A stretch of 35,482 bases of DNA from Candidatus Saccharimonadota bacterium (GTDB taxonomy: Bacteria; Patescibacteriota; Saccharimonadia; Saccharimonadales; Saccharimonadaceae). Under the pieces are notes generated by a model that saw nothing but the letters and a program-made list of their open reading frames with translations, searched no databases and was not told the origin of the DNA. The stretch is taken from positions 1 through 35,482 of the forward strand of contig JAFWLZ010000031.1 in assembly GCA_017510835.1 (NCBI GenBank), written 5' to 3'. The position numbers were made by a program, and so were the translations under genes. Positions 6,134 to 14,087 of this stretch are shown here, in pieces (the first letter of the stretch is position 1; every line of letters begins with the position of its first letter).

Positions 6134-6210
6134 TGGTATGCCCGATACGATTCGAACGTACGACCTTTGGCTCCGCAAGCCAACGCTCTATCCAACTGAG
6201 CTACGGGCAC
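6134..6210 (-). tRNA. tRNA-Arg (anticodon GCG)
   Basis: The cloverleaf is complete: acceptor GTGCCCG/CGGGCAT (G1-U72 wobble), D arm GCTC/GAGC, anticodon stem TTGGC/GCCAA with loop TTGCGGA (anticodon GCG), variable AGGTC and T arm GTACG-TTCGAAT-CGTAT. Discriminator A and an encoded CCA are present. Length is 77 nt. Most bacteria read CGU/CGC/CGA with an ACG anticodon edited to ICG; here G34 reads CGC/CGU directly. Confidence 0.95.
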
Positions 6211-6363
6211 ATATACACTGTGGATCAATATACGCCAGTGAGTATCTCGCACTGCAAAACGCCCAAAGGACGTATACTTCCACCGTTCAAAGATTAAACG
6301 AACGTCGCGCCAGTACAAAGACAAAACGTGATAAACGGTATTATAGCACATTTTCCAGAGAAA

Positions 6364-6372
6364 TGGTATACT
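6364..6372 (+). promoter_or_regulatory. extended -10 promoter directly before the gene at 6379
   Basis: TGG TATACT ends 6 bases before the ATG, so the predicted transcription start coincides with the start codon (leaderless mRNA). No clear -35 or ribosome-binding site is present. Confidence 0.6.
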
Positions 6373-6378
6373 TATTTC

Positions 6379-7110
6379 ATGGGAGAAAAGCAGAAGAAAT
6401 CCGGACTCAAACCAAAATTCCAAAAAGCCAAGGCTAAATTCTTTAAAACTTACTACAGCAACCCTGCAAAAGATTTAAAGATTATCGCTGTTACTGGCAC
6501 AAAAGGGCGGGATATCACTGCACATTACTTACAAGAAATACTCAAGAGCCGCGACAATCGCGCCGGCTTGGTTATCAACCCAAAGAGTACTTCTGATCTC
6601 TATAAACGACTATTCAAAATCTGGAAAACCGGCACCGATTACGCCGTCGTTTCCGTAGACAGCGTCGCATTAGCGAACCACTTTTTCTATGGCATGCCGA
6701 TTTACGCCGCTGTCATTACTGACGACATCAACAATGCTTCACTCGATTCGCAGCCAGATGACGCTCGCGCAATCCTATTCAATACGAAGCCAGACTTCAG
6801 CATCTTGAATCGCAACGATTCCAACTATCATACATTTGCCGAATATCCGAGCAAAACCGCTACTTTCTCGTACGGTACCGAACATGGCGCCGACCTCAAG
6901 GTAACTCCAGGCAAAATCTACAAGATGGGCTCCGAAGCGACCCTTACCTACAATAGCGAACGTTTCGAAGTTGCTACCTATATTACCGAGTCAGACGCCG
7001 CTATCTATATGGGCGCTGCCGCTATGACCGCCTTCGCGCTCGGCTTCAGTTCTGACGATATCGTTGATGGCATCGCAAATTACGAACCAAAACCAGTAAC
7101 AGAGAAATGA
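6379..7110 (+). CDS. MurE-like Mur-ligase central-domain protein, probable pseudoenzyme
   Basis: The chain aligns by eye along its length with the ATP-binding central domain of the MurE encoded at 8784, but stops before the C-terminal ligase domain (243 aa). The catalytic positions are replaced: the P-loop GTNGKTTT becomes GTKGRDIT (K to R, T to D), ELTSHAL becomes SVDSVAL, and TNVTHEHLDYH becomes TDDINNASLDS. The fold-defining strands (DLKIIAVTG, TDYAVVSVDS, IYAAVITDDI, DFSILNRNDSN) are kept. ATP-dependent ligation is therefore unlikely and a binding or scaffold role is more plausible. The start at 6379 is chosen because the extended -10 ends 6 nt before it, and the N-terminus is basic (residues 1-25). 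It overlaps the next gene by ATGA, so translation is probably coupled. Confidence 0.75.
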   Translation: MGEKQKKSGLKPKFQKAKAKFFKTYYSNPAKDLKIIAVTGTKGRDITAHYLQEILKSRDNRAGLVINPKSTSDLYKRLFKIWKTGTDYAVVSVDSVALANHFFYGMPIYAAVITDDINNASLDSQPDDARAILFNTKPDFSILNRNDSNYHTFAEYPSKTATFSYGTEHGADLKVTPGKIYKMGSEATLTYNSERFEVATYITESDAAIYMGAAAMTAFALGFSSDDIVDGIANYEPKPVTEK

Positions 7111-7958
7111 TTAATCAAAAACTCCTAGTATCAGGTGCAGACTTTTTTGCGGACGAATTCGAAATCAATCCGTATTACACCGACAATTCAATCGATGTCA
7201 AAAAGGCCATGGCTGAACACGCCGAAATTGTCGACTGTTTCAAACAGGCCGGTATTGAAGTTATCCAGGTCAAACCACCAAAAGATTGCCAAGATGGCGT
7301 CTATACCGCTAACTGGGCGCTCATCAAAGACGGCGTCGCTGTCATGTCTCGCCTTCCAGAGGCACGCAAAGGCGAGGAGGCCTACGCTAAGAAGCAGCTC
7401 GAAAAACTCGGCATCAAATGTCTTGATGCGCCGGACGATTATCTCTTTTCGGGGCAGGGCGACTCGCTCCGCTGTGGCGATTATCTCTTTGCTGGTCGCG
7501 GCTATCGTTCTGATCCAGAAGCACAACGCTTCGCCGCCAACGCCCTCGGGCTAAATCTTATTCAACTTCACACGAAACCACAGTTGAACGACGACGGCAC
7601 TGACCACATCAATCCGTTCACAAACCATGCTGACAGCTTCTGGTATGATCTCGACCTTGCGCTTGCAATCATCGATGAGCACACAATTGCCTACTGCCCA
7701 GAAGCTTTCGACGACGAATCGCGCCAAAAACTTGAAGACATCAAAAACCTCGACAAAATCATCGTCGATTACGACGAATGCACCAAGGGTTTTGCCTGTA
7801 ATATGGTCAGCACCGGAAAATACGCCATTATGTCTAACAAAGCGCCAAAACTCCAAAAAGAGCTCGAGGCTCGCGGCATCAAATGCCTCACGCCAGACGT
7901 TACTGAGCTTAAAGAAGGTGGTGGTTATATTCGTTGCGTCAGCCTCTGGATTAGCTAA
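7107..7958 (+). CDS. DDAH/amidinotransferase-like guanidino-modifying enzyme
   Basis: This belongs to the pentein superfamily that includes dimethylarginine dimethylaminohydrolase, amidinotransferases and arginine deiminase. Visible family segments are VYTANWALI (residues 65-73), GQGDSLRCGDYLFAGRGYRSD (116-136, counterpart of E-G-G-D-x-L), CNMVSTG (231-237) and the C-terminal GGGYIRC with the probable nucleophile C277. At the position of the usual H-x-D motif the sequence reads YDLDLALAI, so the expected histidine seems replaced; H174 lies nearby. The length of 283 residues is normal. It starts inside the stop of the Mur-like gene (ATGA overlap), indicating a two-gene operon. The substrate cannot be told from sequence. 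Confidence 0.75.
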   Translation: MINQKLLVSGADFFADEFEINPYYTDNSIDVKKAMAEHAEIVDCFKQAGIEVIQVKPPKDCQDGVYTANWALIKDGVAVMSRLPEARKGEEAYAKKQLEKLGIKCLDAPDDYLFSGQGDSLRCGDYLFAGRGYRSDPEAQRFAANALGLNLIQLHTKPQLNDDGTDHINPFTNHADSFWYDLDLALAIIDEHTIAYCPEAFDDESRQKLEDIKNLDKIIVDYDECTKGFACNMVSTGKYAIMSNKAPKLQKELEARGIKCLTPDVTELKEGGGYIRCVSLWIS

Positions 7959-8005: not shown

Positions 8006-8740
8006 ATGAACGAAAATACCGCAAAGAAATCTAATGCCGGCTTGATCGTTGCTATCATCGTAGCAGCTCTCATCATTGCTGGCGGCATCGTTGCAACTGT
8101 TTTGCTAATCCCACAGCTTACTGGCGGCAACAACAACGGCGATAACAATGAGAACACTTCTCAGAACGCCGACGACAATAAAAAAGATGACGACAACGAC
8201 GGCTACAGTAATCCAGCCAAGGTCGACGAGGCGTACGCTATAAAGATTGGTAACAAAAAATACACCTTCCGCAGCAAGCTTTCCGACCTCAGCGAATCTG
8301 GCTACGAAGTCAACGAAAAGGTCAAAGACGAGAAAGTTCCAGCTGGTAAGTATATGATCATGATCGGCGGCGGTTACCTTACTAACAAGTCCGACGATAC
8401 TGATATCAAAGTCACTCCATACAACGATTCTAGCGATGACACCACCTTCCCGAATGCTATGCTCGGTAGCGTAACTATCAGCGACGCATACGACGAAGAC
8501 GAACAAGCAGTCCTCGAAAAAATCGAATTCTACGGCGGTATCCACCTCGGCAGCAGCCGTAAGGATCTCGTTAAGGTCTTTGGTGAGCCAACCGAATCCA
8601 AAGAATACGACAACTACAAGGGCGGCAAGTACGAGAAGATCGAATACCAGGACAAGACCTGGAAGAAATTCGAGTTCAAGGTTGAAGACGACAAAGTCAC
8701 TGAAATGTCCTGGACCAACTACGGCAAACTCAATCGCTAA
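8006..8740 (+). CDS. membrane-anchored extracytoplasmic hypothetical protein (244 aa)
   Basis: The N-terminus has a short basic cytoplasmic tail and one transmembrane helix (about residues 11-36, GLIVAIIVAALIIAGGIVAT). A Gly/Asn/Asp-rich linker (about 40-68) follows, then a globular C-terminal domain outside the membrane. There is no lipobox cysteine. The C-terminal part has a glycine-rich GGIHLGSSRKDLVKVFGEP segment, a pattern seen in small repeat domains in which a GxxxxxVxxxLGxP turn recurs. I do not assign a function. The ATG has a good AGGAG site. It ends at a terminator shared with the convergent murE gene. Confidence 0.75.
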   Translation: MNENTAKKSNAGLIVAIIVAALIIAGGIVATVLLIPQLTGGNNNGDNNENTSQNADDNKKDDDNDGYSNPAKVDEAYAIKIGNKKYTFRSKLSDLSESGYEVNEKVKDEKVPAGKYMIMIGGGYLTNKSDDTDIKVTPYNDSSDDTTFPNAMLGSVTISDAYDEDEQAVLEKIEFYGGIHLGSSRKDLVKVFGEPTESKEYDNYKGGKYEKIEYQDKTWKKFEFKVEDDKVTEMSWTNYGKLNR

Positions 8741-8754
8741 TCACTAGATTGAAC

Positions 8755-8786
8755 AAAAATATCTCCCGAACGGGAGATATTTTTTA
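8755..8786. terminator. bidirectional terminator between the gene at 8006 and murE
   Basis: A long A-rich/T-rich flanked hairpin with stem TATCTCCCG/CGGGAGATA serves both strands. The murE stop codon (8784-8786) is in its flank. Confidence 0.88.
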
Positions 8787-10031
8787 TAGTTTTTTGAGCA
8801 CCTTTTTTATTTCATCTAATTCGTAATAGTCGTGCGCGCCGTCCTTACGCTCAATTGTCTTTTCATTGCCTTTACCAAGAAAGAGCACTGTATCATCTTT
8901 CTTTGCGAGCTTGCAAGCCTCTTTGATTGCACTTGGCCTATCAAGCACCTTAAATAGGTCTTTGCCATCCTTCTTGCCGCTCTTACGCGCTCCTACGGCT
9001 ATCATTTCAAGAATCTCTTCACCAGGCGTGTCGCGGTCATCCTCCTCCGTGAGCACAACGATGTCTGCATATTTTCCCGCAATCTCGCCCATCGGCTCAC
9101 GCTTTGACGGATCACGTCGTCCGCCTGCTGAGCCAAACATTACAATCAAGCGCCCCTTCGTCGCCTTCTTCATATCAGGCAACAACTTTTCAAAAGCATC
9201 CGGCGTATGCGCATAGTCCATAATCGCTGTAAACTTCTGGCCACAATCAATTTTTACCATCCGCCCCTCAACTTCCGTCAACGCATAAATCCCATCTGCA
9301 ATCTGCTTATCCGTCAAACCTAAACGACGCCCTACCGCCACGCAAGCTAGGGAATTAGATACATTGAACTGACCTGCGATACGCGTTTTTATCTTTAGAC
9401 CGTCCGATGTTCCATATTCGACGCCGTCCGGGCGTAGTTTCACATTCTTTGCTTTCAGCTTTCCTGCTTTAATACCATAGCTTTCATACTCCTCGACATC
9501 ACTCTCAAAATACTTCGCTGAAGGATCATCGGCATTAATCACGCCGTATTTTGCCTTCTTAAACAACTTGCGCTTTGCATCACGATAGCGCTCGAAAGTC
9601 TTATGATAATCCAAATGCTCGTGCGTAACATTCGTCAGTACCGCCACTTCAATCGGAATGCCCAAATCCCTATGCTGCGCCAAAGCATGGCTCGTAAGTT
9701 CCAAAACCAAATACTTCGCACCCGAATCTACGATCGTCTTGATTCGCTGATTCAATAAACGTACGTCGACTGTCGTCATGTGTTCTTTCTGCTCATGAAT
9801 CTCATCAACACCCCAACCAACCGTCGTCATCACGCCAGTCTTATAACCGGCCTCTTTCAGCATGCGCCAAATCATAAACGAAGTTGTCGTTTTACCATTC
9901 GTGCCAGTTACGCCAATCACGGTCACTTTACGCCCAGGAAAGCCCTTAAGTGCACCAAACAATACTGATTTACCGACATGATAAGGAATCACAGCCGAAT
10001 CATAAAACGGAATTTTTTCTTTCATACCCAT
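8784..10031 (-). CDS. murE: UDP-MurNAc-tripeptide synthetase (MurE-type Mur ligase), N-terminally short
   Basis: MurE adds the third stem-peptide residue during peptidoglycan precursor synthesis in the cytosol. The P-loop GTNGKTTT (43-50), ELTSHAL, TNVTHEHLDYH, the carbamylated-lysine region RDAKRKLFK and GRM at the start of the C-terminal ligase domain are all present, so the enzyme looks active. Only about 35 residues precede the ATPase domain, whereas typical MurE has a UDP-binding N-terminal domain of about 90-100. The position of the DNPR motif that selects diaminopimelate reads TEEDDRDTP, so the third amino acid cannot be inferred. No ribosome-binding site is seen. TG-A-TAAAAT ends 6 nt before the ATG at 10031, suggesting a leaderless transcript. 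A second in-frame ATG lies two codons downstream. Confidence 0.85.
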   Translation of the reverse strand: MGMKEKIPFYDSAVIPYHVGKSVLFGALKGFPGRKVTVIGVTGTNGKTTTSFMIWRMLKEAGYKTGVMTTVGWGVDEIHEQKEHMTTVDVRLLNQRIKTIVDSGAKYLVLELTSHALAQHRDLGIPIEVAVLTNVTHEHLDYHKTFERYRDAKRKLFKKAKYGVINADDPSAKYFESDVEEYESYGIKAGKLKAKNVKLRPDGVEYGTSDGLKIKTRIAGQFNVSNSLACVAVGRRLGLTDKQIADGIYALTEVEGRMVKIDCGQKFTAIMDYAHTPDAFEKLLPDMKKATKGRLIVMFGSAGGRRDPSKREPMGEIAGKYADIVVLTEEDDRDTPGEEILEMIAVGARKSGKKDGKDLFKVLDRPSAIKEACKLAKKDDTVLFLGKGNEKTIERKDGAHDYYELDEIKKVLKKL

Positions 10032-12116: not shown

Positions 12117-12143
12117 TTAGCACTCGACCCTTGACAGTGCTAA
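12117..12143 (+). promoter_or_regulatory. CIRCE operator (HrcA-binding site) of groES-groEL
   Basis: TTAGCACTC (12117-12125), 9-nt spacer, CAGTGCTAA (12135-12143). This matches the CIRCE inverted repeat except for one base in the right arm (C instead of G). The right arm overlaps the -35 box, which fits repression by HrcA when no heat stress is present. Confidence 0.9.
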
Positions 12144-12159
12144 TTTGCCGCGCTACACT
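12131..12159 (+). promoter_or_regulatory. groES-groEL promoter
   Basis: TTGACA (12131-12136), 17-bp spacer, TACACT (12154-12159). The -35 lies in the CIRCE element. Confidence 0.85.
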
Positions 12160-12196
12160 AGGTTTAGAAATTAATTTTCAGGAGGAAATTACATCA

Positions 12197-12451
12197 ATGT
12201 CTATCAAACCTCTCGCTGACCGCGTCGTCGCCAAAAAAGACGCCGCCACCAGTACGACCGCTTCCGGCATCCTACTTGGCGAAGCAAAAGAGAAGCCAAA
12301 TACCGCTACCGTTGAATCTGTCGGTCCAGACGTAAAAAACGTAAAAAAGGGTGACCGTATCCTATATCGCGAATACTCCGCCACCGAAATAAAATATGAC
12401 AACAAAGATTACCTCATTGTCAAAGAAGAAGATATTTTAGCAACACTATAA
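12197..12451 (+). CDS. groES: co-chaperonin GroES
   Basis: GroES caps the GroEL folding chamber in the cytosol. The N-terminal SIKPLADRVVAKKD, the mobile loop (about residues 15-30, TSTTASGILL), VESVGPDV and the C-terminal YLIVKEEDILATL are all typical. At 84 residues it is somewhat shorter than the usual 94-97. The ATG at 12197 is chosen by the AGGAGG site 11 nt upstream and the family N-terminus; the frame is open further upstream only through the promoter. It is transcribed with groEL, whose ribosome-binding site overlaps the groES stop. Confidence 0.97.
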   Translation: MSIKPLADRVVAKKDAATSTTASGILLGEAKEKPNTATVESVGPDVKNVKKGDRILYREYSATEIKYDNKDYLIVKEEDILATL

Positions 12452-12461
12452 GGAGTTATTT

Positions 12462-14087
12462 ATGGCAAAAAAGATTTTTTATGATGCTGAAGCCCGCGAG
12501 AAAGTTCTCGGCGGCGCCAAGGCTCTCTATGACGCAGTCAAGGTTACCTTTGGCCCAAAAGGTCAGAATGTCGTAATCGAAAAGAGTTACGGCGCACCGA
12601 CCATCACTCATGATGGCGTCACTGTCGCCGAAGCTGTCGATCTCGGCAACGAAGACGACGAAACTCTCGGTTATCAAATGGGCGCAAAACTCATCAAAAC
12701 CGCTGCCCAAAAGCTAAATAAGGTCGCTGGCGATGGCACCACTACTGTCACTGTCCTCACCTATAATATCCTCGCTGAAGCTAATAAGCTTATCGCGGCT
12801 GGTCATAATCCAATGGATCTCCGCAAGGGCATCGAAGCTGCTGGCGCCGAAATCGTAAAGGGCATTAATAAGACTGCCGAGCAAATCGAAGGCGACGATA
12901 GCAAGGTTGCCGAAGTCGCTACTATTTCTGCCGGTGATGCCGAGATTGGCAAACTAATTGCAAATGTCATCTCCAAGATCGGCAAAGACGGTGTCGTCAC
13001 TGTTGAACAAGGCCAAGGTCTCGAAATGCAATCCGAAATCACCGAAGGCTACACCTATGACAAGGGCTACGCTTCACCATTCTTCGTCACCGACACCCAA
13101 CGCCAAGAAGCAATTTTCGATAAACCAGACATCCTCATTACCGATAAAAAGATTTCCGCCGTTAATGATATTGTGCCATTCCTCGAAAAGATGGCTCAAT
13201 CTGGTCGCAAAGACCTCGTCATTATTGCCGAGGAAGTCGAGGGTGAAGCTCTTTCCGTTCTCGTCCTTAATAAACTCAAGGGCGTCTTCAACACGCTCGT
13301 TTTGAAAGCTCCAGCCTTTGGCGACAATCGCAAGCAAATCATGGAAGATATTGCCGTCCTCACCGGCGCTACCGTCGTTTCTAGCGAAAAGGGCATGAGC
13401 CTCGAAGAATCCGGCCTCGAAATCCTTGGTCAAGCTCGCAAGATTATCGCCACCAAGGACCAGACCACTATTATCAATGGCGCTGGCGACACTCGCGAAG
13501 TAAAGGCACGCATCGCCGACATTCAGGCTCAATCCGAAGCCACCATGTCCGATTACGAAACCGAGCAATTCAACAAACGCGCTGCTGCTCTCGCCGGCAA
13601 AGTTGCCGTTATTAAGGTTGGTGGCGCTACCGAAACCGAAATCGACGAGAAAAAATATCGCGTCGACGACGCAGTCGCTGCTACTAAAGCCGCTCTTGAC
13701 GAAGGCATCGTTCCAGGCGGCGGCGTCACGCTCGTCAATCTTGCCAAAGGCATCAAGGACGACAATGCTGGTGCAACTATTCTTAAAAACGCCCTCAAAG
13801 CTCCATTTACGCAGATCATGGAGAATGCCGGTCTTAACAGCCAGGCACTCCTTGCTCAGGTAGAGGCTGCCAAAGATGGGCAGGGCATTAATGTCATGAA
13901 ACCAGCCGAAGGCCTCGTCGACCTTAAGAAAGCCGGTGTCGTCGACCCAGCTCGCGTCACTCGCGAAGCAGTCCAAAATGCCGTCAGCATTGCTGCTACA
14001 ACTATTACTATGGGCGCACTTATCGTCGATCTCCCAGAGAAAAATGATCCAGCCGCAGCTGCCGGTATGGGTGGCGGAATGTATTAA
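12462..14087 (+). CDS. groEL: chaperonin GroEL
   Basis: GroEL forms the ATP-driven folding chamber for non-native proteins. Motifs include TFGPKGQNVVIEKSYGAPTITHDGVTVA (ATP-binding equatorial region), AGDGTTTVTVL with the catalytic Asp, the apical domain around residues 190-370, and GGGVTLVNL near the C-terminus. The tail is the common GMGGGMY. The length of 541 residues is normal. It lies 10 nt after groES under the same CIRCE-controlled promoter and is followed by a strong terminator. Confidence 0.98.
   Translation: MAKKIFYDAEAREKVLGGAKALYDAVKVTFGPKGQNVVIEKSYGAPTITHDGVTVAEAVDLGNEDDETLGYQMGAKLIKTAAQKLNKVAGDGTTTVTVLTYNILAEANKLIAAGHNPMDLRKGIEAAGAEIVKGINKTAEQIEGDDSKVAEVATISAGDAEIGKLIANVISKIGKDGVVTVEQGQGLEMQSEITEGYTYDKGYASPFFVTDTQRQEAIFDKPDILITDKKISAVNDIVPFLEKMAQSGRKDLVIIAEEVEGEALSVLVLNKLKGVFNTLVLKAPAFGDNRKQIMEDIAVLTGATVVSSEKGMSLEESGLEILGQARKIIATKDQTTIINGAGDTREVKARIADIQAQSEATMSDYETEQFNKRAAALAGKVAVIKVGGATETEIDEKKYRVDDAVAATKAALDEGIVPGGGVTLVNLAKGIKDDNAGATILKNALKAPFTQIMENAGLNSQALLAQVEAAKDGQGINVMKPAEGLVDLKKAGVVDPARVTREAVQNAVSIAATTITMGALIVDLPEKNDPAAAAGMGGGMY

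Follow-up and report, generated by a model that had tools for sequence, protein, structure and literature searches.

The window analysed here is a 35,482-nt stretch of DNA (contig JAFWLZ010000031.1 of assembly GCA_017510835.1) from a Candidatus Saccharimonadota bacterium; the features of the locus are listed in Table 1. Its core consists of two co-directional genes, one encoding a short, degenerate MurE-like protein (P0001, referred to as S) and the other a pentein (P0002). The two reading frames share four nucleotides (ATGA), as the initial annotation had described. It had also reported an intact MurE close by, and this gene (P0003) is indeed found 1.67 kb from S, convergent with the pentein gene. 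A 244-aa protein with an N-terminal membrane segment, an Asn/Asp-rich linker and no Pfam match is encoded between pentein and MurE (8006–8740).

The sequence TATACT was present about 6–10 nt 5' of the S start codon in 23 of 24 aligned sequences. Since the extended −10 element (TGnTATACT) lies so near the ATG, the mRNA of the S operon is probably leaderless, with its start at or near position 6379. On the other strand, TGTGCTATAAT, the reverse complement of ATTATAGCACA, probably represents an extended −10 box for the tRNA-Arg gene.

Table 1. Positions of genes, promoter elements and key residues of the locus, numbered from the first nucleotide of the window.
Feature	Position	Strand	Remarks
tRNA-Arg(gcg)	6134..6210	-	Divergent from the S–pentein operon; ARAGORN
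ATTATAGCACA	6340..6350	-	Kept in nearly all of 24 aligned relatives
TGGTATACTTATTTC	6364..6378	+	Directly 5' of the S ATG; contains extended −10 TGnTATACT
S (P0001), degenerate MurE central-domain protein, 243 aa	6379..7110	+	
Degenerate P-loop GTKGRDIT of S	6496..6519	+	
ArgZ-like pentein (P0002), proposed ornithine-forming arginine hydrolase	7107..7958	+	ATGA overlap with S
Pentein Asn69, equivalent of ArgZ Asn71	7311..7313	+	44/44 members
Pentein Asp181, in place of the catalytic His (His168 in ArgZ)	7647..7649	+	Asp in 44/44 members
Pentein Cys277, equivalent of catalytic Cys264 of ArgZ	7935..7937	+	44/44 members
Intact MurE, type B (P0003), TEEDDRD at the position of the DNPR-type motif	8784..10031	-	
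groES and groEL, which flank the MurE slot in a conserved manner throughout the family	12131..14087	+	

S resembles the central domain of MurE

P0001 matched Pfam Mur_ligase_M with 32 bits (cut-off 24; E 1.5e-7) and the NCBIfam MurE models with a best E-value of 3.4e-19, and no match to Mur_ligase_C was found by the Pfam profile search of its 243 residues. Motif alignment showed that GTNGKTTT of the MurE P-loop has become GTKGRDIT, with loss of the Lys; that ELTSHAL has become SVDSVAL; and that the Mg-binding catalytic Glu, the THEHLDYH (DHLDYH) motif and the conserved carbamylated-Lys position of MurE are missing. The residues with which MurE contacts its ligands (the Arg of SHALxxHR, the P-loop Lys and DHLDYH) have largely disappeared. 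These profile searches and alignments bear out the earlier description of S as a MurE central domain devoid of catalytic motifs and of the C-terminal ligase domain, with one restriction: loss of the P-loop Lys holds for the window clade, in which most S proteins have GR, but not as a general trait, as some sister S proteins retain GxxGK[TS]. The usual traits of the short form are the losses of Glu and DHLDYH and the absence of the C-terminal domain.

Structure prediction, which the initial annotation had suggested, gave a MurE-type fold for S (AlphaFold; pLDDT 82.5, pTM 0.81) and an ArgZ-type fold for the pentein. The best structural match of S was the plastid MurE-like protein PAP11 (TM 0.83), followed by MurE enzymes (TM 0.78–0.81). 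The central-domain fold of a MurE ligase is thus retained and its P-loop, its Glu and DHLDYH and its C-terminal domain are not, which supports the assignment of S, on sequence grounds, as a degenerate, non-ligase relative of MurE.

The structural comparison also bears on a possible role of S and the pentein in amidation, as in MurT–GatD, in which ammonia released from arginine by the pentein would be transferred to a carboxylate of the stem peptide. MurT is likewise a Mur-ligase relative without the N-terminal domain and is paired with an ammonia-releasing enzyme, and the model of S does match MurT, although with a TM of 0.65 that is below the MurE-type matches. However, the P-loop Lys, the Glu and the C-terminal domain that ATP-dependent amidation would need are absent from the window S, and S matches the MurE types better than it does MurT. 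We judged a MurT–GatD analogue to be unlikely in the extreme, S having neither the P-loop Lys of an ATP-binding Mur protein nor a C-terminal domain and its partner being a pentein instead of a glutamine amidotransferase.

Two types of MurE in the family

In 151 genomes of the family, MurE occurs in two types when compared with the window MurE: type B (50–100% identity, 75 genomes), to which the window protein itself belongs, and type A (36–43%, 67 genomes). The N-terminal UDP-MurNAc-binding domain is missing from the window MurE and from the family MurE proteins read, irrespective of type (L062–L141; about 415–445 aa). Where E. coli has the mDAP motif DNPR, nearly all type-B proteins read have EDDR, within TEEDDRD; at this position g2 proteins (g numbers denote genera) have TEDDSRD and most type-A proteins EESY or EENY. 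Because the Asn of the mDAP site is absent from both types, their substrate would be basic and without a second carboxylate, which points to lysine or ornithine as the third residue. MurE of S. aureus has an acidic pocket and relies in part on the lysine pool (PMC3829189); as the amino-acid pool can help to decide the substrate of MurE, a dedicated supply of ornithine is plausible.

Two genomes contain MurE of type A (or A-like) and of type B together and may be replacement intermediates (G081, C2:110490–112948, and G095). In one genome of the window genus (G120, 98% complete), searches for MurE (at E 1e-30), pentein and S found nothing, possibly because this wall step was lost or because the assembly has a gap.

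Distribution, selection and ancestry of S

The same 151 genomes were searched for relatives of S. Eight g1 genomes encode a short P0001-like protein, every one beside a pentein. Such proteins also turned up in nine genomes of g2 and, as single cases or a few at a time, in g3, g10, g12 and g59. A longer degenerate form (S-long, 356–388 aa) occurs in g17, g9, g13, g15 and g57. S is present in at least 35 of the 75 type-B genomes versus none of the 67 type-A genomes. In g10 (L116–L119), a short MurE-like gene without a recognisable P-loop lies beside the gene for DNA polymerase I (polA).

The reading frame of S is intact in every g1 and g2 genome that carries it. For the closest measurable pairs, dN/dS was 0.08 for S of g1, 0.058 for S of g2 and 0.045 for S-long, and 0.03–0.06 for MurE-B. 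As these values are low, S is under purifying selection and is a working protein; together with the intact frames they rule out a relic or pseudogene.

S shares 35–38% identity (up to 113 bits) with A-type MurE of related genomes versus 30% (26 bits) with the MurE of the window, which suggests the A-type enzyme as the proper comparison. All S proteins grouped with A-type MurE in a tree with outgroups (support 100/100), and an ILNRDD-like motif is common to A and S where B has INADD. S being far closer to A, and B being monophyletic, descent of S by duplication of the window's own MurE was ruled out. A placement of S inside the A group is not secure, since AU tests did not reject a branch point between A and B (p 0.41–0.45). 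The S-long proteins of g9, g13, g15 and g17 form one clade (100/100) even though other species of g9, g13 and g15 carry an intact MurE-A. S-long has probably spread together with MurE-B for this reason rather than decayed anew each time, and separate decay of MurE-A in situ in the four genera is unlikely.

Gene order and the pairing of S with the pentein

The genome contigs were scanned for pentein genes, yielding 80 named loci. S lies directly upstream of and co-directional with the pentein in 42 of these; in 13 of them the two genes overlap by 4 nt, and in the rest they are no more than 23 nt apart. Most of these loci are from Candidatus Saccharibacteria MAGs, many of herbivore-gut origin. 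Conservation as neighbours, on which the initial annotation had staked the pair, is therefore in its favour within the clade. The −10 box is conserved before S and there is no space for one between S and pentein. These features would suit the earlier proposal that S is a dedicated partner of the pentein, binding a nucleotide sugar or other wall precursor and delivering substrate to the pentein or regulating it. Yet in g2, in g12 and in most genomes of g10 S occurs without any pentein, penteins occur without S in many genera, and in g17, g9, g13 and g15 S, in its long form, is coupled to MurE-B instead. Moreover, the ligand-contacting residues have been lost from S, and in L170 S is intact beside an interrupted pentein. 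The distribution rules out an obligate pair, and a dedicated partnership is distinctly unlikely. Because S occurs without the pentein and is elsewhere coupled to MurE-B, it would appear to belong to the MurE locus.

The interrupted pentein is that of one species (L062 5177–6028 and, in genome G128, L170 8001–8537), in which an in-frame TAG splits the gene and both S and MurE-B are intact.

The type-A genomes, which have no S, show a slot between TsaD and FemAB or groES–groEL that is filled by MurE-A alone. The same slot holds S, MurE-B and a convergent pentein in g17; S, pentein and a convergent MurE-B in g1; and S with a convergent MurE-B but no pentein in g2. The g1 order follows from that of g17 if the MurE-B/pentein pair is inverted, and the S–pentein operon of the window clade may well have arisen by such an inversion next to S. 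Gene order thus supports displacement at a single locus. Among the 80 pentein loci, pentein and MurE-B are convergent in 70 and FemAB is directly upstream of the pentein in 15; in L208 it is MurE-B that lies directly upstream, with a 4-nt overlap. An 828-aa fusion of Ddl (D-Ala-D-Ala ligase) with a Mur ligase is encoded directly downstream of the pentein, before MurE-B, in L087 (5759–8245), and L245 probably has the same arrangement.

Identity of the pentein

By sequence, the closest solved relatives of P0002 are ArgZ and AgrE (3.4e-22), which also occupy Foldseek ranks 1–13 for the predicted structure; the model superimposes on ArgZ with a TM of 0.87 (1.8 Å) versus about 0.77 for DDAH. The equivalents of Asn22, Asn71 and Cys264 of ArgZ are invariant in 44 of 44 members. 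The catalytic His168 of ArgZ, in contrast, is an Asp in all of these close members. Actinobacterial homologues (Knoellia, Rothia) and two further homologues from CPR genomes also have the Asp, and the His is retained in CPR homologues that are more distant. Rv2323c is presumably the namesake of NF045659 (Mtb-type dimethylargininase), judging from the name of the model, and this NCBIfam model scored best against P0002 (143.7 bits), albeit below its cut-off of 300. The NCBIfam arginine dihydrolase model gave 109.5 bits (curated cut-off 450) and Pfam DDAH_eukar 58.6 bits, which exceeds its cut-off of 23. Sequence and fold agree better with an ArgZ-like arginine dihydrolase than with the first reading of this protein as a DDAH/amidinotransferase-like enzyme. 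With Asp in place of the catalytic His throughout the close members, dihydrolase chemistry should not be assumed; that the pentein is an ArgZ-like, ornithine-forming arginine hydrolase appears rather likely.

Arginine and ornithine in the family

A pentein is present in 42 of 75 type-B versus 4 of 67 type-A genomes (Fisher p 5e-11, ignoring kinship). Pentein and arcA, in this comparison two routes from arginine toward ornithine, occur together in 3 genomes only (p 0.004, ignoring kinship). Neither is found in 22 of the 75 type-B genomes, which would need to take up ornithine or else build in a different amino acid. In g9, g13, g15 and g27 the pentein is confined to species with MurE-B. In the window genome (about 92% complete), which has several FemAB genes elsewhere, no match was found to two decarboxylase families (both with ornithine decarboxylases among their members) or to ornithine aminotransferase, and for this reason the wall is the simplest sink found for ornithine. 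A divergent Asp-type pentein in g24 (L104, L105, L106) adjoins an aminotransferase, away from MurE, in genomes with MurE-A; two of these aminotransferases were tested and exceed the ornithine aminotransferase cut-off (406.9 and 390.9 versus 378.4 bits).

The pentein could alternatively act in the catabolism of arginine or nitrogen, or form citrulline by deimination, in which case its adjacency to MurE would be mere inherited synteny and S a drifting leftover. The same Asp-type pentein is found in Actinobacteria (Knoellia, Rothia), and synteny is broadly conserved in the family. Growth of Mtb on arginine requires Rv2323c, whose gene belongs to a roc cluster that also encodes ornithine aminotransferase and an arginine transporter; Mtb makes ornithine from arginine with no known arginase (PMC4569260). 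A leftover is hard to reconcile with the strong purifying selection on S, and inherited synteny with a pentein that is linked to different wall genes in varied orders (FemAB, MurE-B upstream, Ddl–Mur fusion) and that in four genera is restricted to the MurE-B species; we consider this explanation unlikely.

Proposed role of the locus

We propose that the window contains a peptidoglycan stem-peptide locus in which the pentein supplies ornithine to MurE-B and S is retained as a non-catalytic partner, and we assign this reading a probability of roughly 0.5. The pentein would hydrolyse scavenged L-arginine to L-ornithine, as cyanobacterial ArgZ does, and the neighbouring MurE-B would add this ornithine as residue 3 of the stem peptide. 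S would descend from a type-A-like MurE, the first occupant of the slot, that was displaced as ligase by MurE-B; devoid of ligase activity, it would have been kept by purifying selection as a scaffold or regulator of the residue-3 step, acting most likely with MurE-B or the Mur assembly. In the window clade, the MurE-B/pentein pair would then have been inverted next to S, giving the S–pentein operon.

The chances that ornithine is the substrate of MurE-B wherever a pentein is present seem about even. That S is a non-catalytic partner in the step carried out by MurE-B is put forward tentatively, at somewhat less than even odds, the chief competing readings being a partner of the pentein and a decoy; the S gene beside polA in g10 counts against a link between S and MurE-B, and the genus-level associations come from related, non-independent samples. 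As such an inhibitor or decoy, S would compete for the Mur assembly and in this way tune MurE-B, without being a required subunit. The shared locus, the MurE-derived fold, the absence of catalysis and the strong selection fit a decoy, but the present evidence does not separate it from a scaffold; we regard it as very unlikely. In its most general form, the proposal of a stem-peptide locus would have the His-to-Asp wall arginine hydrolase and a matching MurE, which it feeds with ornithine, enter several Saccharibacterial lineages as a cassette in place of the original MurE, the old enzyme being kept as a non-catalytic subunit. This extension is doubtful; if true, the replacement would have divided two tasks, catalysis passing to the newcomer and scaffolding staying with the incumbent.

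Relation to known systems

Saccharibacteria are tiny bacteria that live on other bacteria, and their wall chemistry and use of host amino acids are poorly known. The proposed role of the locus, if true, would tie arginine scavenging to wall building in an obligate episymbiont. In one Saccharibacterium in culture (Se), the arginine deiminase system was classified as essential (PMC10633639); as this system also leads to ornithine, our proposal would offer another possible reason for it. The S family forms a clear natural series in which activity was lost and selection retained, and the pentein clade offers a changed catalytic residue for study.

A literature search found no paper on Mur-ligase pseudoenzymes and none linking ornithine, MurE and Saccharibacteria in this manner. 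A MurE-derived non-enzyme (PAP11) and penteins of the ArgZ kind are already known; as far as the searched literature shows, a degenerate MurE family kept beside a replacement MurE, a wall-locus pentein and its invariant His-to-Asp change are new.

The pentein has its closest solved relatives in ArgZ/AgrE of the cyanobacterial ornithine–ammonia cycle, with which it shares the Asn22, Asn71 and Cys264 equivalents, but it differs in the Asp at His168, the lack of an ornithine cyclodeaminase domain and the wall-locus context. To the Mtb-type DDAH family (NF045659) it is related as the best-scoring model, at a score under the curated threshold. The pair resembles MurT–GatD in that a relative of the Mur ligases is combined with a second enzyme of wall precursors. 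MurT, however, has a C-terminal domain and is catalytically active in an ATP-dependent reaction, and GatD is a glutamine amidotransferase, whereas the partner of S is a pentein. With MurE itself, S has the central-domain fold and the ancestry in common but neither the P-loop Lys, catalytic Glu, DHLDYH and carbamylated-Lys position nor the C-terminal domain. PAP11, the best structural match, likewise has the MurE fold and has taken on a structural role, in its case as a subunit of the plastid RNA polymerase; it functions in transcription and much more of the MurE chain is preserved in it, whereas S consists of the central domain alone and is encoded in a bacterial wall locus.
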